Part shown: piece after piece, positions 1,719-20,547 of the stretch | How positions within the stretch are numbered: the first letter of the stretch is position 1 | Layout: every line of letters begins with the position of its first letter | DNA from: Gammaproteobacteria bacterium | GTDB taxonomy: Bacteria > Pseudomonadota > Gammaproteobacteria > Granulosicoccales > Granulosicoccaceae | Direction of reading: 5' to 3' | Length of the DNA stretch: 20,547 nucleotides | NCBI GenBank assembly: GCA_020444765.1 | Contig: JAGRHW010000015.1 | Coordinates: 1 to 20,547 of the forward strand | Translations under genes and position numbers: made by a program | Notes under the pieces: generated by a model | Database searches by the model: none | What the model saw: the letters and a program-made list of their open reading frames with translations, nothing else | What the model was told of the DNA's origin: nothing

Positions 1719-2948
1719 ATGAAAACTCGCGGTTTTACCACGCGCATTCTACACAGCGACCGGCAAAGTCATATCGAACACGGCTCCTTGCATAAACCCG
1801 TGCACACCTCGATCGCCTTTGCCCACGAAAGCGCCGAAAGTATCGCCGAGGTATTCCAGGGCAAACAACCCGGATTCACTTATGGCCGCCAGATCAACCC
1901 GACCACCAATGCGCTGGAAGACAAGATCACGCTCATGGAAGACGGTCTGGCCAGCGTCTGTTTTTCGACCGGCATGGCCGCCATCGCCGCCTGCATGCTG
2001 GCCCTGCTGCGGAAAGGCGATCACTTGATATCGAGTTCGTTTCTGTTCGGCAATACCAACAGCTTTTTTACAACCCTGGAGAATTTCGGCATCGAGGTAA
2101 GCTTTGTCGATGCCACCGACGCTGCCAGTGTTTCCGCCGCTGTCAAAGCCAACACGCGCATGGTGTTCACGGAAACCATCGCCAATCCCTGCACGCAGGT
2201 CAGCGATCTGAAAGAAATCGGTGAACTCTGCGCGGAAAAAAATCTGCTCTATGTGGTCGATAACACCATGACCTCCCCTTGCGTTTTTCGCCCGAAGTCC
2301 GTCAAGGCCAGTCTCGTGATCAACTCCCTGTCGAAAATAATCTGCGGCCATGGCAATGCACTTGGCGGTTCGATAACCGAGACCGGGCTGTTCGACTGGC
2401 GCGGCTATCCGAATATCGCGGAAAACTACAAGTCCGGTAAGCCGGAAAAATGGGGCTTGCAGCAGATCCGCAAAAAAGGCCTGCGGGATACCGGTGGCAC
2501 GCTGGCGCCACAGGCCGCACACATCATCGCGGTCGGTGCGGAAACACTGGCCTTGCGGGCCAGTAAGGCCGGCGAGAACGCCCTGAAGCTTGCGCGCATG
2601 TTTCGCGATCATCCGAAAATAAAAAAAGTCTTTTATCCGGGCCTCGAACAGCACCCGGAGCACCAACGCGCGCAGGAACTGTTCAATACCTTCGGCGCGC
2701 TGATGAGTATCGAGCTGATCGACTCGATGGACTGTTTTGATTTTCTCGACCGCCTGCAAATGGTCATCATCTCCAGCAATCTTGGCGACAACCGCACGCT
2801 GGCGATTCCGGTTGCGCATACGATTTTTCATGAGATGGGCGCCGAGCGCCGCAGAACCATGGGCATAGGCGACAACATGATTCGCCTGTCGATCGGCATC
2901 GAGGACTATGGCGATCTGCATGACGATTTTATCCAGGCATTGCAGTAA
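1719..2948 (+). CDS. Cystathionine gamma-synthase-family PLP-dependent enzyme
   Basis: A 409-residue fold-type I PLP enzyme of the Cys/Met metabolism family (about 380-420 aa), likely cytosolic. Visible family features are YGRQxNPTTNALE (residues 55-67) for the phosphate-binding Tyr/Arg, STGMAAI (84-90), the DN pair at 181-182 that binds the pyridine nitrogen, and the Schiff-base lysine K206 in SLSKIICGHG. The segment matching LYGCT of methionine gamma-lyase reads LFGNT (109-113). The usual catalytic Tyr is therefore Phe, and the lyase-specific Cys is Asn. This marks a side branch of the family. The reaction could be gamma-replacement (cystathionine or O-acylhomoserine type) or gamma/beta-elimination, and the sequence does not decide. 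No biosynthetic partner gene is adjacent. It is probably monocistronic, flanked by terminators on both sides. Confidence 0.9.
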   Translation: MKTRGFTTRILHSDRQSHIEHGSLHKPVHTSIAFAHESAESIAEVFQGKQPGFTYGRQINPTTNALEDKITLMEDGLASVCFSTGMAAIAACMLALLRKGDHLISSSFLFGNTNSFFTTLENFGIEVSFVDATDAASVSAAVKANTRMVFTETIANPCTQVSDLKEIGELCAEKNLLYVVDNTMTSPCVFRPKSVKASLVINSLSKIICGHGNALGGSITETGLFDWRGYPNIAENYKSGKPEKWGLQQIRKKGLRDTGGTLAPQAAHIIAVGAETLALRASKAGENALKLARMFRDHPKIKKVFYPGLEQHPEHQRAQELFNTFGALMSIELIDSMDCFDFLDRLQMVIISSNLGDNRTLAIPVAHTIFHEMGAERRRTMGIGDNMIRLSIGIEDYGDLHDDFIQALQ

Positions 2949-5757: not shown

Positions 5758-6249
5758 TCAGTTCATCATTTCCAGATCTTCGACAACCGCCTGTACACCG
5801 GCCATCGCGCAGGCTTCATCGGTTTCACCGGAAGGTGCGCCACTGACACCCACGGCGCCGTAAATCGTGCCGCCAGCTTCGATCAATACGCCGCCGGCGG
5901 ACATGGTCAGGCCGTCAACCGCGCCGATGGGTGAAGCCGACAAGTCGGTCAATTGTGAAGTCGCCACACTGAAGTTGGCAGCGGTATAGGCCTTTTCCTT
6001 GCTGATTTGCAGCGATATCGGCGGTGCCAGCGTATCGCGAAGGACAGCCTGCACGGTACCGTTTTTGTCGACCACGGTCGCAGTAACCTGCACACCCTGC
6101 TTGCGGCATTCCTCAACCGTTGCCTGGGCCACGCCTTGCGCGGCATCCAGTGTCAGGCGTTTTACCGCAACCACCGGCGATTCTTCGGCAATCGCCATCC
6201 CTGCAAGAAAAATCCCGGCCACGATGATGCTCGAACGAAATAAAGTCAT
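5758..6249 (-). CDS. Exported HbpS/GlcG-family heme-binding-type protein
   Basis: 163 residues. A signal peptide of about 21 residues ends at GMAIA-EE. The rest matches the HbpS/GlcG (DUF336) family: LTLDAAQGVAQATVEECRKQG, then VTATVVDKNGTVQAVLRD, the ISKEKAYTAA helix, the Gly-rich stretch SAGGVLIEAGG and GAVGVSGAPSGETDEACA. HbpS proteins bind heme or small ligands and form oligomers; GlcG accompanies glycolate genes. No such partner is present here, so the ligand is unknown. The ATG is preceded by a strong GGAGGA (plus-strand 6253-6258). It lies 166 bp downstream of the SCP2-like gene on the same strand and may share its transcript. Confidence 0.87.
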   Translation of the reverse strand: MTLFRSSIIVAGIFLAGMAIAEESPVVAVKRLTLDAAQGVAQATVEECRKQGVQVTATVVDKNGTVQAVLRDTLAPPISLQISKEKAYTAANFSVATSQLTDLSASPIGAVDGLTMSAGGVLIEAGGTIYGAVGVSGAPSGETDEACAMAGVQAVVEDLEMMN

Positions 6250-6929: not shown

Positions 6930-7048
6930 ATTTATGATCGGAGTGCGCAACGCACCCGGCCTGAGTGTATGCAAGCCGACACCTGTCGCGCTAATCCCCA
7001 TTGGAGAAGGAGGCGTCTATCCTTGTTGGCCAGAGCCGTGCGGTCGTC

Positions 7049-8049
7049 TCAGTGGCTGTTCGGCATGCCGAAGCCACGCCGGTATTCGTTGGTGGTAACA
7101 CCGACCTTACGCTTGAACAGGCGGCGAAAATAACTGTCTTCGGTGTAACCGATCTCTTCGAGAATCCCCATGATTGTATTATTGCCGTTTTCCAGCAGCC
7201 GCTGGCTTTTTCCACCCGAACATTCTGGATATATTCCAGTGGTGCTTGCCCGGTAGCGTTTTTGAAGCGCCGCTTGAAGGTCCGCTCGCTCAGACCGCTA
7301 TGCAGAACAGCTCGCGCCAGCAGGTCTTTTTCCGCCAGATGCTGCTGCATCCATTCCTGCACATCACGGATCACCAGATCTTCGCGCGCCAACGGCGCGG
7401 CCAGCGGAATACACGGTGTCTGCTTGTCAAACGAGCCGCTCAGCAAAAAGAATCGGTTGGCCTGACTGGCCATTTCACTGCCGGCAAAGCGTTCCAGCAG
7501 ATAGCTGGTCAGGTATTGCCACGAGGTCGAACCACCGGCGCAGATGATCCGGTCATCATCGGTCAGCACTTCGTCCGCCTGCAGATTGACCTCAGGAAAA
7601 TTCTGCCTGAACAGATCACGAAACGCCCAGTGCGTCGTCGCCAGTTTGCCGTCCAGCAAACCCGATTCTGCCAGCACGAAACTGCCGGCACAGATGCTTG
7701 CCAGTACGGCACCGCTCTGATACTGCTCAACCAGCCATCGGCTGAGTCGCGGATCGGTCCGGTAACGCCCGTCAGGACCCGGCGCAACCGACGGAATGAT
7801 CACCAGATCGGTCTTGCCGATTTGCGTAAAACTCAACGGACAGTCGAGCTTCATCTTGTTAAACGACTCGACCGCACCACAGTGCAAGCCGGCGATATTA
7901 ACCTTGAAATGGATTTGCGGCGCTTCACCACTGACGGCTTCCCAACACGGCCCCGTAGAGGAAAACACATCAAAGGGACCGCTTAATGTGTAACCCATAA
8001 CACCCTCCAGAGCGAGTATGGTTACATCTACGATTGGCACGTTCGACAC
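7049..8049 (-). pseudogene. GlxA-type regulator (DJ-1/PfpI + AraC HTH) with a one-base frameshift in the HTH region
   Basis: GTG start at 8049 (GTGTCGAACGTG). Residues 1-200 form a DJ-1/PfpI-type amidotransferase-like domain with the nucleophile-elbow Cys in SICAGSF (C120) and TTHW around H140. An AraC-type DNA-binding domain follows from about 224 (first HTH: LSERTFKRRFKNATGQAPLEY). After VEKA (282) the frame is lost: one base is missing near 7202-7203. In the next frame the expected end continues as RLLENGNNTIMG, EEIGYTEDSYFRRLF, GVTTNEYRRGFGMPNSH, with TGA at 7049-7051, giving about 333 residues, normal for the family. Without repair the frame runs on to 6991 with an unrelated Ser/Arg-rich tail and lacks the second HTH. 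It may be a real mutation or an assembly error. Divergent from mtoX, it is a candidate local regulator. Confidence 0.88.
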
Positions 8050-8211
8050 GGATTTGACCTTTTTAGACCTTTCTGATGACCATCAGCCACTGCATAATGA
8101 AAACTGTCATCAGCCAAGATATACAACACTATTTGAGGATAGCACCTAATAAGTTTAAATAATTACTTGTACTCACCATAAATATAACTAGCCAAATTGG
8201 AGAGAGGAACC
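8050..8211. promoter_or_regulatory. Divergent promoter/operator region between the GlxA-type gene and mtoX
   Basis: An AT-rich shared control region of 162 bp. It holds direct repeats GACCTTT at 8056-8062 and 8066-8072 (10 bp apart, one helical turn), a 12-bp palindrome TGATG-AC-CATCA at 8074-8085, and a 9-bp direct repeat CATCAGCCA at 8081-8089 and 8108-8116 (27 bp apart). TATAAC at 8183-8188 is the best -10 candidate for mtoX, but it has no good -35, which would suit activator control. Binding is inferred only. Confidence 0.45.
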
Positions 8212-9615
8212 ATGAAACCAAGAACAGAGAAAACCTTACCCGCCCTGAAGCGATCCCTGCTGGCCGCCGTGCTCGGCGCCGCCGTCGCAGCCCCCATGAG
8301 CGCACCGCTTATGGCCGACGAGACCTGCATGTCGCCCTATATGGCGAAAATCGTCGGTCAGGAAGATTTCATCTATGTCTGGACACTCGGCATGGAAGGG
8401 CTCGGTGACGAACAGGACAAGCTCGTCACCGTCGACGTCAATCCCAATTCGCCCAACTACGGCAAGGTCGTTAACAGCCTGTCGGTGGGCGGACGCAACG
8501 AAGCGCATCACTCCGGTCTGACCGACGATCGCAAATACCTGTGGGCCGGCGGCCTGGATACCAACAAGGTGTTTATCTTCGATGTGCACACCGATCCGGC
8601 CAAACCGACACTCTGGAAAACGATCGATACTTTCGTTTCGGACAGTGGCGGCGTGGTCGGCCCGCACACCACCTACGCCCTGCCCGGCAGGATGATGATC
8701 ACCGGCCTCAGCAATAACAAGGATCACGGCGGCCGCAGCGCGCTGGTCGAATACTCCAATGCCGGCGAATATATCGCCACGCACTGGATACCGACCGATG
8801 AAAACCTCGGTGGCGCCGAGAAAACCGGCAAGATCGCCGATGGCTACAACTACGACATCCGGGTACTGCCGCGCCGTAATGCAATGTTCACCTCATCCTT
8901 TACCGGCTGGTCCAACTACATGATGGACTTCGGCAAAATGCTGGCCGACGAGGAAGCCATGAAGCGTTTCGGCAACACCGTCGTGCAATGGGATCTGCAC
9001 AGCCGCAAACCACGCAAGGTGTTCGACGTACCCGGCGCGCCGCTGGAAATCCGTTGCGCCTGGCAGCCGAATAATAACTGGTGCGTTACCACCACCGCGC
9101 TGACCTCGAAAATCTGGCTGATTTACGAAGACGAGAAAGACGGCTGGCAGGCCAAACCCGTCGCGGATATCGGCGACCCGGCGAAAATCCCCCTGCCGGT
9201 GGATATTTCACTGACATCGGACGACTCCGGTCTCTGGGTCAACTCCTTTATGGACGGCAAAACCCGCTTTTTTGATATGACCGATCCGCACAACCCCAAG
9301 CAGGTCTACGAAAAAGTCATCGGTAAGCAAGTCAATATGGCCTCCTCCAGCTGGGACGGCAAGCGTGTTTACTACACCTCGTCTTTACTCGCCAACTGGG
9401 ATAAAAAAGGCGATGACAACGAGCAGTACATCAAGGGGTTCGAGTGGAACGGCAGCGAACTGGTCGAGAAATTCGCGATCGATTTCAAAGCTGAAAAGCT
9501 CGGTCGCGCGCACCAGATGCGTTTCGGCGCCTACAGCCTGTACACGCAAAATACCCCTGAAACGGTCGAGCGCGCGCTGGCGCAAGCGCCCGTACAGCAA
9601 TCTATCACGAAATAA
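8212..9615 (+). CDS. mtoX: Methanethiol oxidase, SBP56/SELENBP1 family
   Basis: 467 residues from the ATG at 8212, which has GGAGAGAGGA just upstream; a TTG at 8197 is inside that region and is rejected. The signal peptide covers about 1-35 (LAAVLGAAVAAP, then PLMA-DE), so the enzyme is periplasmic. Family marks in order: C39xxPY; EAHHSG (H99, H100), matching ELHHSG of human SELENBP1; GPHTTY (H152); GYNYDIRVLPRRN; PLEIRC; PVDISLTSDD; SWDGKRVYYTSSLLANWDK; and GRAHQMRFG (H434). The His residues are likely copper ligands. The enzyme oxidises methanethiol to formaldehyde, H2S and H2O2. Where human SELENBP1 has its selenium-binding Cys57 (SPQYC), this protein has SPNYG (G84). It is first in an operon with SCO1-MauG and SCO1 genes, as known for mtoX loci. 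Bacterial MTO is an established Cu-dependent enzyme of this family. Confidence 0.92.
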   Translation: MKPRTEKTLPALKRSLLAAVLGAAVAAPMSAPLMADETCMSPYMAKIVGQEDFIYVWTLGMEGLGDEQDKLVTVDVNPNSPNYGKVVNSLSVGGRNEAHHSGLTDDRKYLWAGGLDTNKVFIFDVHTDPAKPTLWKTIDTFVSDSGGVVGPHTTYALPGRMMITGLSNNKDHGGRSALVEYSNAGEYIATHWIPTDENLGGAEKTGKIADGYNYDIRVLPRRNAMFTSSFTGWSNYMMDFGKMLADEEAMKRFGNTVVQWDLHSRKPRKVFDVPGAPLEIRCAWQPNNNWCVTTTALTSKIWLIYEDEKDGWQAKPVADIGDPAKIPLPVDISLTSDDSGLWVNSFMDGKTRFFDMTDPHNPKQVYEKVIGKQVNMASSSWDGKRVYYTSSLLANWDKKGDDNEQYIKGFEWNGSELVEKFAIDFKAEKLGRAHQMRFGAYSLYTQNTPETVERALAQAPVQQSITK

Positions 9616-9627
9616 CCTTCCCGTTAT

Positions 9628-9663
9628 AGCCGGGGTCACCCCTGCGGGCCCCGGCTCTTTTTT
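9628..9663 (+). terminator. Terminator/attenuator between mtoX and the maturation genes
   Basis: An 8-bp stem AGCCGGGG (9628-9635) / CCCCGGCT (9649-9656), loop of 13 nt, followed by C and six T (9658-9663). It begins 12 bp after the mtoX stop and ends 16 bp before the GTG of the next gene. Partial read-through would give much more mtoX mRNA than mRNA for its downstream partners. Confidence 0.85.
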
Positions 9664-9679
9664 CAAACAGGATAACTCC

Positions 9680-11620
9680 GTGAATAGCGTTGTTGTATTA
9701 GCACGTTCGTCGGCGAATCCGCTGACTGTATCGGGCAGGCTTATTTTATTATTCCTGATGGCAGGTTTTGCAGAACTTTTGCCAGCCCAGGAACCGCTTG
9801 CCCCCGGTTATAATGAACTCTCCTACGAATTGCCTGAACCCGGCAGCTACCAACTGCCACCGTTCGGGACTGCGGCCGATGGCGAGGTTTTATCCGAAGA
9901 CGGCAAAACCCTCTCCCTGCATCAATTATTCGACGATAAGTACACACTGCTGAGCTTTATCTACAGCAATTGCAGCGATATCAACGGCTGTCCGCTCAGC
10001 GCCTATGTGTTTTATCAGATCAAATCAGCGATGCAGAAGGATGCCAGGCTTGCAAAAAAACTGCAACTGATCAGCCTGAGTTTTGATCCGGCACGCGACA
10101 CGCCGCCGGTCATGCGGCTGTATGGCAATAACTTCAAATACGCCGGTGCCAGAGGCGACTGGCACTTTCTGACGACCGGCTCGGAGGGCGAGCTCGAACC
10201 TATTCTGAAAGCCTACGATCAGGACCTGCAGCGTTATTACAGTGTCGAGGATGATACGCGCCTCGAATATGCGCATATCCTGCGGGTCTTTCTGATCGAC
10301 CCGGAAAAAAGAATCCGCAATATCTACAGTGTCGGTTTTTTACACGCGGACCTGGTTCTGCGCGATATACAAACCCTGTTTCTTGAAGAAAGCGCCAAGC
10401 CCGGCTCGACCCTGGAAGTCACGGAGCGCCTTGCCCAGCCCGGCGATTACAAGCACGGCTACGACGATACCTCCTATCAAAGCCGCTCGCGCGCACTGAC
10501 TGCTCGCCTCGGCGAAACGATGGATTTACTGAACAATACAATAAATCCACCACTCGGCCTGCCGCCGCTGCCGGCAAGCATGACCGACGGCCTCAGCGTG
10601 GAGAAAATCGAACTCGGCAAAAAACTTTTCTTCGATCGCAGACTGTCTCATAACGAAACCTTTTCCTGCGCGATGTGCCACATCCCCGAGCAGGGCTTTA
10701 CCAATAACGAACTGGCCAAGGCTGTCGGCATAGAAGGCCGAACGGTGCGGCGTAATTCACCAACGATTTACAATGTCGCCTATTATAAAAAATTCTTCCA
10801 CGACGGCCGCGAGGATTCCCTGACGCAACAAATCTGGGGACCTTTGCTGGCACACAACGAAATGGGCAACCCATCGGTCGGCGCGGTCATCGGCAAGATT
10901 AAATCCCTGCCGGATTACGAAGGCGCCTTCGAGGAAATTTACCAGGGCAAAAGCGTCAGCATGGAAACACTTGGCGACGCCATGGCCGCTTACCAGATCA
11001 GCCTGTTATCCGCCGATTCGCCGTTCGACCGCTGGTATTTCGGCAAGCAACAGGATGCCATCAGCGACAAGGCAAAAGCCGGTTTCAGTCTGTTCACCGG
11101 CAAGGCGGCTTGCGCAAGCTGTCATCTGATCGCCGATGATCATGCCTTGTTTACCGATCAGCAGCTGCACAATACCGGCAGCGGTTACCGTGAATCGATG
11201 GGCACGGGTTCAAAAACCCAACGCGTGAATCTCGCGCCGGGCGTGTTTGTCGATGTCGAGCGCGAGATCATCGATTCGGTGTCGGAAAAGCCACCATCTG
11301 ATCTCGGTCTCTACGAAATCACGCAGGACCCGCGCGACCGCTGGAAATACAAGACCCCGAGTTTGCGCAATATCGCTCACACCGCACCCTATATGCATAA
11401 CGGCGCGTTTGGAACACTCGAAGAGGTTGTCGAATTTTACAACCATGGCGGCGTAGCCAATGAAGATCTGGACCCTCGCATCAAACCACTCGGCCTGAAC
11501 CGTGAGGAAGTCAGCAGCCTCGTCGAGTTTTTACAAACCCTGGACGGCGATAATATCGATGCTCTCGTCAGCGATGCATTCACCGCGCCGGTCAGCGACT
11601 GTCAATGGATAGACAGATGA
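9680..11620 (+). CDS. SCO1-like domain fused to a MauG/diheme cytochrome c peroxidase domain
   Basis: 646 residues from the GTG at 9680, with AGGATAAC 6 nt before it; upstream in-frame codons lie inside mtoX and the terminator. A signal or anchor sits at about 20-36 (LILLFLMAGFAELLPAQ). Residues about 55-235 are a SCO/thioredoxin-like domain: LLSFIYSNC, C98-SDING-C104 (CX5C in place of the usual CX3C), SLSFDPARDTP, and the metal-ligand-type His199 in EYAHILRVFLID. Residues about 290-635 are a MauG/bacterial cytochrome c peroxidase domain: KLFFDRRLSHN, heme sites C330-AM-CH334 and C478-AS-CH482, HDGRED, TPSLRNI and APYMHNGAFGTLEE. It should act in the periplasm. The likely role is maturation of MtoX (copper delivery plus heme-driven oxidation), inferred from known mtoX loci that carry separate SCO1 and mauG genes. 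The last 16 nt overlap the next gene. Confidence 0.9.
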   Translation: MNSVVVLARSSANPLTVSGRLILLFLMAGFAELLPAQEPLAPGYNELSYELPEPGSYQLPPFGTAADGEVLSEDGKTLSLHQLFDDKYTLLSFIYSNCSDINGCPLSAYVFYQIKSAMQKDARLAKKLQLISLSFDPARDTPPVMRLYGNNFKYAGARGDWHFLTTGSEGELEPILKAYDQDLQRYYSVEDDTRLEYAHILRVFLIDPEKRIRNIYSVGFLHADLVLRDIQTLFLEESAKPGSTLEVTERLAQPGDYKHGYDDTSYQSRSRALTARLGETMDLLNNTINPPLGLPPLPASMTDGLSVEKIELGKKLFFDRRLSHNETFSCAMCHIPEQGFTNNELAKAVGIEGRTVRRNSPTIYNVAYYKKFFHDGREDSLTQQIWGPLLAHNEMGNPSVGAVIGKIKSLPDYEGAFEEIYQGKSVSMETLGDAMAAYQISLLSADSPFDRWYFGKQQDAISDKAKAGFSLFTGKAACASCHLIADDHALFTDQQLHNTGSGYRESMGTGSKTQRVNLAPGVFVDVEREIIDSVSEKPPSDLGLYEITQDPRDRWKYKTPSLRNIAHTAPYMHNGAFGTLEEVVEFYNHGGVANEDLDPRIKPLGLNREEVSSLVEFLQTLDGDNIDALVSDAFTAPVSDCQWIDR

Positions 11621-12183
11621 TTCCGCTCGTCTCGGGACGCGGAATCCTGCTTGTCCTGGCGATTCTTCTGGCATCAGGTTTTACGAGGGCCGAAACCCTG
11701 ATCGGCGGTGACTTCGAACTCACCGATCACCACGGTCAGCCCTTTTCTCTGACAGCCACACGCGGCAAGGTCACATTGCTTTTTTTCGGCTACACCTCCT
11801 GTCCGGATATTTGCCCGATAACCCTGACGGAAGTCTCCAGCATTCTTAAAACACTCGGTACAAGGGCAGATGAAATAGCGCCGATATTTATCTCGGTCGA
11901 TCCCCAACGCGATATGGTCGAACGGCTGGCTCAATACATCCCGTGGTATGACAAACGGCTGATAGGCTTGACCGGCACGCAGCACCAGATCGACGCCGTC
12001 ACCGACGCCTATCACGTACAGGTCCAACTGAACAGAAAGAGCCCCGACGATATGACTTACACCGTTGATCACAGCGCCGGCCTGTTTCTTATCGACAGAG
12101 CCGGTCGCCTGACGCAAATTATTCCGTTCGGCCTGCCGCGGGAACACAGCCTTCGGGCAATCGAGGATCTGCTCGACCAATAA
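11605..12183 (+). CDS. SCO1/SenC/PrrC family copper chaperone
   Basis: 192 residues from the ATG at 11605. A start at the ATG at 11617 (residue 5) would give an ATGA overlap with the stop of the fusion gene and is equally possible; neither has a clear Shine-Dalgarno, which fits translational coupling. The N-terminal hydrophobic segment 13-26 is a signal or anchor, followed by a thioredoxin-like domain. Copper ligands are the canonical C66-PDI-C70 motif (GYTSCPDICP) and H156 (VDHSAGLFLID); FISVDPQRD is the family's central strand. SCO proteins load copper into periplasmic or membrane enzymes, classically the CuA site of cytochrome oxidase. As the last gene of the mtoX operon, its more likely client here is MtoX. 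About 65 bp of plain sequence separate it from the repeat cluster. Confidence 0.92.
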   Translation: MDRQMIPLVSGRGILLVLAILLASGFTRAETLIGGDFELTDHHGQPFSLTATRGKVTLLFFGYTSCPDICPITLTEVSSILKTLGTRADEIAPIFISVDPQRDMVERLAQYIPWYDKRLIGLTGTQHQIDAVTDAYHVQVQLNRKSPDDMTYTVDHSAGLFLIDRAGRLTQIIPFGLPREHSLRAIEDLLDQ

Positions 12184-12248
12184 GCCGACCAGACTGCTCC
12201 TTATCAGGAGACCGGGGAACGTCACCTCCAATACCTCGATCGAAGCGT

Positions 12249-12332
12249 CGTCATCCCCGAGTGCCTTTGTCGGGGATCCGGCATCTCCACCCGACAGTCC
12301 GCTGCTGGATTCCCGCCTGCGCGGGAATGACG
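12249..12332. repeat. Double-hairpin repeat, copy 1 (84 bp)
   Basis: Bounded by CGTCAT and ATGACG. It contains two perfect 8-bp hairpins: ATCCCCGA/TCGGGGAT (12253-12260 with 12270-12277) and ATTCCCGC/GCGGGAAT (12309-12316 with 12321-12328). The middle part GCATCTCCACCCG..GTCCGCTGCTGG is shared with the other copies. The layout resembles a non-autonomous palindromic element (REP/MITE-like). Copies of the CCCGCCTGCGCGGGAATGACG type are common between genes in proteobacteria. Confidence 0.85.
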
Positions 12333-12395
12333 GGCAAAAACCTGCACCCTCTAAGCAACCCCTTCATTATCCGCAAATTTCCCGGCCAAGAAGAA

Positions 12396-12480
12396 CGTCA
12401 TCCCCGAGCGCTTTTGTCGGGGATCCAGCACCTCCACCCGGGCGGCCCGCAGCTGGATTCCTGCCTGCGCGGGAATGACG
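12396..12480. repeat. Double-hairpin repeat, copy 2 (85 bp)
   Basis: Same orientation as copy 1, beginning CGTCATCCCCGAG and ending GCGGGAATGACG. The first hairpin is perfect. The second has one G-T pair (ATTCCTGC with GCGGGAAT). It is separated from copy 1 by 63 bp of unrelated sequence. Confidence 0.85.
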
Positions 12481-12508
12481 GGCTAGCACAGGCATCAAAC
12501 AACCACTT

Positions 12509-12588
12509 CGTCATCCCCAAATGCTTTAGTCGGGGATCCAGTGCTTCCACCGGGCAGTCTGCTGCTGTACTCCTTCCAGGCAATAACG
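12509..12588. repeat. Double-hairpin repeat, copy 3, decayed (80 bp)
   Basis: Same orientation, only 28 bp after copy 2. The first hairpin keeps 7 of 8 pairs (ATCCCCAA with TCGGGGAT). The second hairpin has lost its pairing (ACTCCTTCCAGGCAATA) and the end reads AATAACG in place of AATGACG. It abuts the promoter region of tmcA. Confidence 0.75.
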
Positions 12589-12610
12589 GGTTCTTACGAC
12601 CAAATAACGC

Positions 12611-12616
12611 TATACT
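12611..12616 (+). promoter_or_regulatory. Candidate -10 element for tmcA
   Basis: TATACT (5/6 to consensus), 48 bp upstream of the tmcA ATG. The -35 region would fall at the right end of the decayed repeat (about 12588-12593, GGGTTC), a poor match, so the promoter is tentative. Confidence 0.35.
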
Positions 12617-12663
12617 CGGCGCAACGATTCCTTGTCCAGCCAGAGCCTGCTCCCAATAATCGA

Positions 12664-19360: not shown

Positions 19361-20383
19361 CTACTGTATCTCCAGTCCAAATCGCTGTTTGCAGTATTTT
19401 TCAGTAATCTCGCGAAACGGCTCTTCCATATAAAATTTATCGTGATGACTGCCGGCCCAATAAGCTTCCCTTCTTTCCTCCGTGTTTAGAATAACTTCCA
19501 TCAAGCTGCTTTTTGCGAACTTATATTCACCCAGTCCGAATGGTCTTGGTCTATCAAAGTATCCGTTCGCCGTATGCACGCACGTGTTTTCTGCGCCATC
19601 GTTTAAAACCAGGTATTTTCTTTTGTCTTCTATGGGCATTTCTATTAATTCCAGATGAAAGCGCGCCATATACATCAGTATATTTCTGAGCTTAAAGTTG
19701 TTTGGATAGGTCGTCAGTATCCACCATTGCACATCGTCCCTGACTCCGTCGTTGTCACTGTCCACACCCAGTACCGCACCTTTGTCCTTCCAACGATCGT
19801 GACCGGATGGGATGCTTTCACCGGATTTCTGAACATCCAATTGCATTTCCAACCCAAACAATTTTTTGCAATTCTCTGCATTAACTTTGTCGCTCATATA
19901 GAATCCCGAGCCTAGATTGCTTCTTGTCCAATAGGCCTCCTTTCGTTCTGGCGTATTCAGAATTACTTTGTTCAGTTTTTTCTTTGGCATTACCAGGTCT
20001 TGTAGCGCATAGCCGTACAGAAATCCGTTAACAAATAGCACGCACTCATATCGAGTATCATCATTCATGTACGTGTATATCTGCTTACGGTCCAGTGGCA
20101 TTTGTAGTAACCCCTGTTCGGAACGTGCGACATACATCAGCACATTCCTGAGATTTTTATCATCCGGATAGGTTGCCAGTATCCACCGTTGCACATCATC
20201 CCTGACCCCGTCGTTGTCACTGTCCACACCCAGTATCGTGCTGTTACCTTCCCATCGGCCGGGATCGGGCGGTATGCCCTCACCGGGCTCAAGGTCCACG
20301 TAGTAGTAACTGGGTATCGAACAATACGCCAAGCACGACGCTATCAAGATAAGAAATACAGATAGTAGAATTTTCTTCTTCAT
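19361..20383 (-). CDS. Lipoprotein with two tandem ~154-residue repeats and DxDxDG calcium-type loops
   Basis: 340 residues from the ATG at 20383 (MKKKILLSVF); a TTG at 20410 overlaps the upstream gene and is not preferred. The N-terminus is a lipoprotein signal with lipobox IASC and acylated C17. The mature protein is an internal duplication with an offset of 154 residues. Each half has W, then LGVDSDNDGVRDDVQ (52-65 and 206-219; a DxDxDGxxDD loop as in thrombospondin type 3/EF-hand-like calcium sites), WIL-TYP, LRN-LMY-AR, MP-x4-K-x-Y, a single Cys, VILNT-ER-EAYW, and a closing C-x5-GLE. I do not recognise a named family. Base composition is clearly more AT-rich than the neighbouring genes. 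The upstream partial gene seems to be a homologue. Function unknown; a surface or periplasmic role is inferred. Confidence 0.8.
   Translation of the reverse strand: MKKKILLSVFLILIASCLAYCSIPSYYYVDLEPGEGIPPDPGRWEGNSTILGVDSDNDGVRDDVQRWILATYPDDKNLRNVLMYVARSEQGLLQMPLDRKQIYTYMNDDTRYECVLFVNGFLYGYALQDLVMPKKKLNKVILNTPERKEAYWTRSNLGSGFYMSDKVNAENCKKLFGLEMQLDVQKSGESIPSGHDRWKDKGAVLGVDSDNDGVRDDVQWWILTTYPNNFKLRNILMYMARFHLELIEMPIEDKRKYLVLNDGAENTCVHTANGYFDRPRPFGLGEYKFAKSSLMEVILNTEERREAYWAGSHHDKFYMEEPFREITEKYCKQRFGLEIQ
19704..19773. repeat. Intragenic direct repeat, unit A (70 bp)
   Basis: It matches 20166-20235 at 65 of 70 positions, starting GGATAGG and ending CACCCAGTA. It encodes the DxDxDG loop and flanking Trp-Ile-Leu of the second protein repeat. 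The offset of 462 bp is exactly 154 codons. Confidence 0.85.
20166..20235. repeat. Intragenic direct repeat, unit B (70 bp)
   Basis: Partner of 19704-19773 with five differences. It encodes the DxDxDG loop of the first protein repeat. The high DNA identity in this part alone, against looser protein similarity elsewhere in the repeat, points to recent duplication or gene conversion of the loop segment. Confidence 0.85.
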
Positions 20384-20393
20384 AATTGAGTAC

Positions 20394-20547
20394 TCACTTC
20401 TCAATCTCAAACCTGCAGTTGTCCTTCCATCGGTTCATTGGATTACCCAAAAAAAACTGTCCCTCAAGCAGTGCATTGTAGGCTTCATAAACAAGAGACC
20501 TGTCCTTGGTATCGAGTATTTCCGAATGCAGTAGTGCGGAATAGGTA
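20394..20547 (-). CDS. 3' end of a gene homologous to the repeat lipoprotein (partial)
   Basis: The frame is open from the right edge and ends at TGA (plus-strand 20394-20396); 50 codons are visible. The segment EILDTKDRSLVYEAYNALL, then GQFFLGNP and DNCRFEIEK, can be aligned to the repeat ends of the next gene, which read VILNT-ER-EAYW, G-FYM and NCKKLFGLEMQ. The shared order is IL-(N/D)-T, R, EAY, G-x-F, N, C, and Glu near the C-terminus. So it is likely another member of the same family. The stop lies 10 bp before the ATG at 20383, so the two genes are probably co-transcribed. The full length and any signal peptide are outside the window. Confidence 0.6.
   Translation of the reverse strand, partial: TYSALLHSEILDTKDRSLVYEAYNALLEGQFFLGNPMNRWKDNCRFEIEK

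Follow-up and report, generated by a model that had tools for sequence, protein, structure and literature searches.

Co-variation of a MauG-like diheme gene, a CX5C SCO motif and two tryptophans of MtoX around a methanethiol oxidase operon with a SCO-diheme fusion

The window analysed here is a stretch of 20,547 nucleotides (positions 1 to 20,547 of contig JAGRHW010000015.1, assembly GCA_020444765.1) from a gammaproteobacterium of the Granulosicoccaceae, and our subject is its operon of mtoX, for a methanethiol oxidase (MtoX), a gene that fuses a SCO-like domain to a MauG-like diheme domain, and a stand-alone SCO1. Across related loci the diheme gene, a CX5C motif in the SCO domain and two residues of MtoX, Trp233 and Trp342, vary together. 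We propose that the operon encodes a periplasmic Cu-dependent MtoX together with its own maturation factors, the diheme part oxidising MtoX via Trp233/Trp342 and the SCO parts serving for docking and copper; we give this reading a probability of roughly 55%. The gene order, the fusion and the idea of maturation by copper and tryptophan tryptophylquinone (TTQ) are already published (PMC5739008 and PMC6548844, which are cited here, like PMC10936201, from the portions available). What this analysis adds is the three-way co-variation, with it a testable target for the diheme enzyme, and the CX5C class of SCO. Full-text searches that covered few subscription journals returned no paper on CX5C with SCO and no report of the co-variation among papers on MtoX with MauG or tryptophan, which is weak evidence of novelty.

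The co-variation table holds 52 MtoX rows with readable gene context (locus L156 counts twice, and L125 and L126 are near-identical loci from two genomes). A diheme gene in the locus, the CX5C motif, Trp233 and Trp342 occur together in 44 of the 52 rows; one more (L133) has the diheme gene and both tryptophans, the mtoX-type SCO being absent from the locus. In six rows (L158, L159, L194-L197) the locus lacks a diheme gene; the orthologous SCO is CX3C there, position 233 is Phe, Leu or Lys and position 342 is Phe. L194 and L195 are from Microvirga and L196 and L197 from Skermanella, plasmid cases for which the fetched regions were examined; for L158 and L159 the whole genomes (G467 and G429) were searched and gave no full diheme homolog (best match 45.5 bits and none, respectively). 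The remaining row (L147, 7920-9494) is a second mtoX copy without partner genes, with His100 replaced by Gln, in a genome that also has the normal set; judging by its sequence, this copy looks degenerate. Trp396 is present in all 52 rows. Outside the table stand L148, fragments in G125, G178 and G355, weaker fragments elsewhere and the lower-scoring SBP56 proteins that were new in the phylum sample; L165 was placed among 37 lower-scoring rows.

The two tryptophans were also singled out when all conserved columns were considered. At least 95% conservation was found in 143 columns of the 45 MauG-associated MtoX, and 11 of these changed in the MauG-less clade (Q50, P78, V149, T153, G173, T176, W233, M238, L262, A276 and W342), a column being taken as changed if it was kept in at most two of the six MauG-less MtoX or in fewer than half of 120 relatives. 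Trp233 and Trp342 are the only tryptophans among the 11, and Met238 is the sole other Trp, Tyr, Cys, His or Met. Likewise, among the tryptophans conserved at 90% or more (57, 111, 233, 260, 302, 312, 342, 381, 396 and 412) only 233 and 342 changed. The L158 MtoX was also compared, without gene context, with its 120 nearest proteins: position 342 is never Trp there, and position 233 is Trp in 23. Trp233 is replaced by Leu, Ile, Arg, Lys, Phe, His, Val, Ala or Gln, with at least six changes between Trp and another residue and at least 22 residue changes on a quick tree built without the trait columns; so many replacements and repeated changes are as expected of a released constraint. Both tryptophans are also missing in the distant MauG-less L149 and L150 and in 34 lower-scoring SBP56 proteins.

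The order of these changes was examined with quick trees, calculated without bootstrap and with the trait columns removed, which gave long-branch warnings. The six MauG-less MtoX fall in a clade of 24 rows, some of them included without gene context, inside the MauG-associated MtoX (Shimodaira-Hasegawa-like approximate likelihood ratio test, 99). The CX3C SCO of the MauG-less loci cluster together (91) within the CX5C sequences, with nesting branches of 84-88, and L149 and L150 sit on very long branches. From this nesting, MauG was probably lost first, together with a reversion to CX3C and the change W342F, and Trp233 then decayed repeatedly. It could be argued that MauG, the SCO motif and the two tryptophans changed on one branch for unrelated reasons, considering that the MauG-less rows, the distant L149 and L150 aside, are one clade in both trees and that nine other conserved columns changed with them. 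We regard such a coincidence as unlikely, taking into account that just two of the ten conserved tryptophans changed, that Trp233 went on decaying to many residues, and that L149, L150 and the 34 lower-scoring SBP56 proteins are without both.

Several observations weigh against a maturase that acts on these two residues. Since the MauG-less MtoX are one clade, a single event may account for the loss of MauG, the change from CX5C to CX3C and W342F, and 23 of the 120 nearest relatives, compared without MauG context, have Trp233 but not Trp342. In addition, L148 (G245, 2-1066), 79% identical to the window MtoX, keeps Trp233, and a search of the G245 genome gave no match to the diheme homolog and no mtoX-type SCO (best E 2.1e-7). 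The contig breaks off within this gene, ahead of position 342 and at the end where partner genes would be expected, so that incomplete assembly is a more probable explanation than true absence; L148 may still be a counterexample. Moreover, when E. coli produced R. pomeroyi MtoX by itself, the enzyme consumed methanethiol (77 uM); its product was mainly sulfane sulfur, and H2O2 was not formed (PMC10936201). Human SELENBP1 produced in E. coli showed activity with copper (PMC10362175), and hence not every activity depends on the modification. The activities of the proteins made in E. coli may be partial, and the R. pomeroyi enzyme gave no H2O2 there.

Which residues would be oxidised has been answered differently before. 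In PMC5739008 copper loading and a TTQ cofactor were proposed, the latter from structure 2ECE and a mass match, and PMC10936201 named Trp223 and Trp386 of R. pomeroyi, our Trp233 and Trp396, as the supposed TTQ residues; in the papers found, the protein-derived quinone is not yet settled. According to that proposal the MauG homolog would make TTQ from Trp233 and Trp396, and Trp342 would be a relay or irrelevant. It agrees with the tracking of MauG by Trp233 in the 52 rows and with the secondary structure of the AlphaFold2 model, in which Trp233 and Trp396 each follow the second strand of a propeller blade and so could face each other. However, Trp396 is kept in 6 of 6 MauG-less MtoX, in 120 of 120 of their relatives and in 28 of the 34 lower-scoring SBP56 proteins, and therefore has a MauG-independent role, and Trp342 tracks MauG as strictly as Trp233 does. 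We thus consider the published pair somewhat unlikely; in our reading MtoX is most likely oxidised by the diheme enzyme, either directly at Trp233/Trp342 or by way of them. The earlier note on this DNA had expected a heme-driven oxidation that leaves an oxidised residue in MtoX; a link between the diheme enzyme and particular tryptophans of MtoX is supported by the co-variation, which points to Trp233 and Trp342.

The kind of diheme enzyme bears on the same question. The domain belongs to the CCP_MauG superfamily (PF03150, residues 308-457, E 4e-52, 177.1 bits) and has two CXXCH motifs. It scored below the cut-offs of the TTQ-forming MauG (TIGR03791, 198.3 against 443.85 bits) and of MbnH (TIGR04039, 212.4 against 362.85 bits), being slightly nearer MbnH. 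Tyr587 occupies the position of the MauG axial Tyr, from which we presume an axial role here; this Tyr was found in 47 of the 48 locus diheme domains above 300 bits, the other one (L151) being cut by a contig end. Peroxidases have Met at the axial position, and the Trp of their FWDGR motif sits between the hemes. This Trp is replaced in the window (FHDGR), where His374 is invariant in 22 of 22 fusions; an FWDGR-type pattern was matched in 38 of the 48 domains, with His in 31 and Trp in one. By the axial-position Tyr and the scores, the domain is of MauG/MbnH type and a member of neither named family; on this point the MauG assignment of the earlier note is not supported as stated. The AlphaFold2 model of the fusion was poor (predicted local distance difference test, pLDDT, 65.8; predicted template modelling score 0.43) and was not used. 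A second diheme gene adjoins the SCO-diheme fusion in L123, L135, L140 and L144.

Considering the superfamily, the diheme domain could instead be a peroxidase that removes H2O2, or an electron acceptor during MtoX turnover, and not a maturase. It resembles bacterial cytochrome c peroxidases and MbnH to nearly the same degree (in single-sequence comparison with the PDB, the peroxidase 3o5c and 6e1c scored alike), and H2O2 was proposed as a product of methanethiol oxidase (MTO) in PMC6548844. The Tyr in place of Met and the His that mostly replaces the FWDGR Trp argue against such a role, which also leaves the loss of two MtoX tryptophans together with MauG unexplained; we judge it decidedly unlikely. 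Just as improbable to us is an MbnH-like reaction, in which one Trp of MtoX would become a copper ligand by conversion to kynurenine or by hydroxylation. Such is the chemistry of MbnH, which is the best NCBIfam match (212 bits, over 198 for the TTQ MauG), and the best PDB match of the diheme profile is 6e1c ('Di-heme enzyme'), which we take to be an MbnH; still, the scores for both MbnH and MauG are far under their cut-offs, and two tryptophans, not one, track the diheme enzyme.

The fused SCO domain was recognised by the Pfam SCO1-SenC model (PF02630, residues 72-211, E 1e-14, 55.1 bits against a cut-off of 22.8). The standard SCO motif is CX3C. In place of the CX3C and His copper site this domain has CX5C (CSDINGCP) with His199 kept, and C98, D100, N102, G103, C104, P105 and H199 are invariant in 22 of 22 aligned fusions (C-x-D-x-N-G-C-P); the remaining MauG-bearing loci read C-x-D-x-x-G-C-P, and CX5C was found in all 44 MauG-bearing MtoX rows whose locus holds a SCO domain. 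The stand-alone SCO1 has the CX3C and His site (CPDICP, DHS). It had been suggested in the earlier note that the fusion couples copper delivery to heme oxidation: a fusion dedicated to mtoX is what we find, but since its SCO part carries CX5C, copper delivery by that part is not supported as stated. Relatives of about 800 residues (4 among the 120 matches listed) were also noted; both that were aligned (P0013 and P0064) end in a CX3C SCO domain, and as single chains of SCO(CX5C)-diheme-SCO(CX3C) thus exist, the downstream SCO1 is argued to be part of the same machine.

In a database search with the fusion, 4849 proteins passed E 0.001, and both Pfam domains (PF02630 and PF03150) are present in all 120 among the matches listed, the window's own included. 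Linkage to mtoX was examined in 369 gammaproteobacterial genomes (53 match the MtoX model, 32 above its cut-off), 385 genomes of the alpha class (39 and 8; a second draw gave mostly the same genomes) and a phylum sample of 398 (36 and 4, one of the four already in hand). In the gammaproteobacterial set a profile of the mtoX-linked SCO gave 35 hits of at least 186 bits; the next, at 97 bits, lies beside the outlying MtoX of G315, and other SCO reach at most 77 bits among the matches listed. The mtoX-type SCO is present in 32 of 32 genomes with an above-cut-off MtoX. In 33 of the 35 it shares the strand of mtoX, and the matched parts of MtoX and SCO are 131-410 nt apart; the exceptions are G125, at a contig start with mtoX split over other contigs, and G368, on a different contig from mtoX, which is there adjoined by a separate diheme gene. 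A fusion mostly away from mtoX, the outcome set beforehand as speaking against the earlier note, is thus not what was found. By frame length 27 of the 35 are fused and 8 separate; both domains were seen in 23 of the 27 (L128 with a broken frame), G368 was assigned by coordinates, and G125, G178 and G355 by frame length alone. Alphaproteobacterial loci with both have SCO and diheme as separate genes ordered as the domains of the fusion, an order kept by all separate pairs except in the gammaproteobacterial locus L139, where the diheme gene lies across mtoX. Among the 34 lower-scoring SBP56 proteins compared, that of L123 shares a cluster with a real mtoX set, and for 33 neither such an SCO nor a diheme gene came above threshold in the fetched stretch (150 bits for a diheme partner; weak matches of at most 59 bits, some kb from SBP56 in L190 and L191, were counted as no partner).

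Because all 120 matches listed carry both domains and 33 of 35 SCO adjoin mtoX, the architecture is not due to chance, and a dedication of the fusion to mtoX is supported by these comparisons. An assembly or frame error was rejected as its origin (the frame is open over 646 residues and relatives recur), as was service to another enzyme, given the tie to mtoX. From a contig scan with the fusion alone 80 loci were kept, of which L001 and L002 are true fusions, both beside mtoX; in the other 78, left outside the counts, the diheme part alone matched, in many as two diheme domains. Family and order searches around G467, G429 and G459 (1 to 4 genomes each) gave no new cases.

Taking these results together, the fusion protein would be a dedicated MtoX maturase, whose diheme part would draw electrons from tryptophan of MtoX by using an oxidant. 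Trp233 and Trp342 would be the substrate, or an obligatory route, leading to a Trp close to the copper site that is oxidised or cross-linked. The CX5C SCO part would act only in partnership with the diheme enzyme; its task would probably be to dock MtoX and to handle copper or thiols meanwhile, and the stand-alone CX3C SCO1 would probably load copper. A wider and more tentative conclusion, which we hold as possible, is that there are two biochemical kinds of MtoX, one matured at Trp233/Trp342 (R. pomeroyi 223/332) by a SCO(CX5C)-diheme enzyme and one that lost the maturase, has a CX3C SCO and may use copper alone; CX5C would then mark a novel SCO type, functional only next to a diheme tryptophan oxidase, and the site would not be Trp223-Trp386. 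Methanethiol oxidase provides one step of the sulfur cycle in the sea and in soils, and the contrast between MauG-bearing and MauG-less MtoX, with the two tracking tryptophans, reduces the quinone question to a few mutants and mass measurements in organisms that are named here.

MtoX of the window has 467 residues and scored 780.5 bits with the NCBIfam equivalog NF052453 (cut-off 650), with a further match to PF05694. Its AlphaFold2 model has a mean pLDDT of 86.7 and 2ece as best PDB fold match, and a hydrophobic leader is visible by eye at the N-terminus; from these features it is a periplasmic Cu-dependent methanethiol oxidase of propeller fold. The four Cu-ligand His are present (His99, 100, 152 and 434, corresponding to R. 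pomeroyi 88, 89, 141 and 424; ligand role from PMC5739008 and PMC10936201). The features of the operon are collected in Table 1.

Table 1. Features of the mtoX operon in the window.
Feature	Position	Strand	Basis
mtoX, methanethiol oxidase, SBP56 family	8212..9615	+	ATG start; NF052453, PF05694
MtoX Trp233 codon (R. pomeroyi Trp223); lost in MauG-less MtoX	8908..8910	+	alignment
MtoX Trp342 codon (R. pomeroyi Trp332); lost in MauG-less MtoX	9235..9237	+	alignment
MtoX Trp396 codon (R. pomeroyi Trp386), second Trp of published TTQ pair; kept without MauG	9397..9399	+	alignment
GC-rich hairpin, then six T, between mtoX and fusion gene	9628..9663	+	shuffle test
SCO-diheme (MauG/MbnH-like) fusion, 646 aa	9680..11620	+	PF02630 + PF03150; homologs
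CX5C motif of fused SCO, Cys98-SDING-Cys104	9971..9991	+	alignment of fusions
His199, third possible ligand of fused SCO	10274-10276	+	alignment of fusions
First heme motif, CAMCH	10667..10681	+	sequence
Second heme motif, CASCH	11111..11125	+	sequence
Tyr587 in FYNHGG, position of MauG-type axial Tyr	11438..11440	+	alignment
Stand-alone SCO1, CX3C (CPDICP) + His (DHS)	11605..12183 (alternative start 11617)	+	PF02630, E 5.5e-46

The gene order given in the earlier note (mtoX, SCO-MauG fusion, separate SCO1) was confirmed by the coordinates and the Pfam and NCBIfam matches. For the fusion gene the best start is GTG 9680, with AGGA 7 nt upstream. The 16-nt overlap of the fusion with SCO1 that was described before is uncertain because SCO1 has a second in-frame ATG: it applies if the first ATG (11605) is used, and becomes 4 nt (ATGA) with ATG 11617. 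The hairpin that follows mtoX has a stem of about 10 bp (z -2.45 against shuffles of 9610-9680) and was not reported by a consensus terminator scan. It is a possible attenuator and, followed by six T, may keep production of the maturase below that of MtoX. A hairpin with T-run within 110 nt 3' of mtoX was found in 8 of 52 MtoX genes examined and is not general; L134 and L136 also have a strong one. A scan of 7900-12400 for sigma-70-like promoters gave none. In another locus (L156, 7902-10731) two tandem mtoX precede one SCO-diheme pair, both copies with Trp233 and Trp342.

A DJ-1/AraC-type (FtrA-like) regulator (6991-8049, minus strand) is divergent from mtoX, and its helix-turn-helix end runs on in another frame, a frameshift that is real or an assembly error. 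A gene of the cystathionine gamma-synthase family (1719-2948, plus strand; NF004609, 681 bits over a cut-off of 555, with the methionine gamma-lyase model under its cut-off) is a possible neighbouring source of methanethiol. Near the diheme gene lies one for an HbpS-like heme-degrading family protein with a leader-like N-terminus (5758-6249, minus strand). The intergenic stretch 12240-12660, upstream of tmcA, has short repeated motifs with in-frame WIPACAGMT-like peptides and the look of a dispersed repeat, and at 19361-20410 (minus strand) a lipoprotein-like protein contains an internal duplication (GVDSDNDGVRDDVQ twice).

By comparison with known systems, MauG of methylamine dehydrogenase (TIGR03791) resembles the window domain in being a diheme protein with Tyr at the axial position and a link to the maturation of a redox enzyme; the window's domain reaches 198 bits against a cut-off of 444 and is fused to SCO. 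MbnH (TIGR04039; PDB 6e1c), which has a copper context, is the closest diheme family by score (212 bits against 363), and its model has no SCO domain. The earlier note could not tell whether the fusion had been described; it has been, for Methylophaga thiooxydans, where both domains are fused (PMC5739008). Its mto-clusters 1 and 2 share with the window the order mtoX, SCO1-MauG fusion, SCO1/SenC/PrrC gene (PMC6548844) and a proposed periplasmic maturation; they also have genes for persulfide dioxygenase, SqrB and SulP, whereas the window has tmcA downstream, and the available portions of both papers make no mention of CX5C or of the tryptophan co-variation for these clusters. Hyphomicrobium sp. 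VS and Ruegeria pomeroyi (L198) have the same three functions in the order mtoX, SCO1/senC, mauG (PMC5739008), with SCO and MauG-like proteins from separate genes in contrast to the window's fusion, as the earlier note had stated for Hyphomicrobium; as in the window, R. pomeroyi has CX5C (CGDVNGCP) in the SCO and both tryptophans in MtoX. In Microvirga and Skermanella (NZ_CP016617, NZ_CP141050, NZ_CP086108 and NZ_CP086112) mtoX is likewise followed directly by the orthologous SCO gene, but there is no MauG-like gene within 6 kb on each side, the SCO is CX3C and MtoX is without Trp233 and Trp342.

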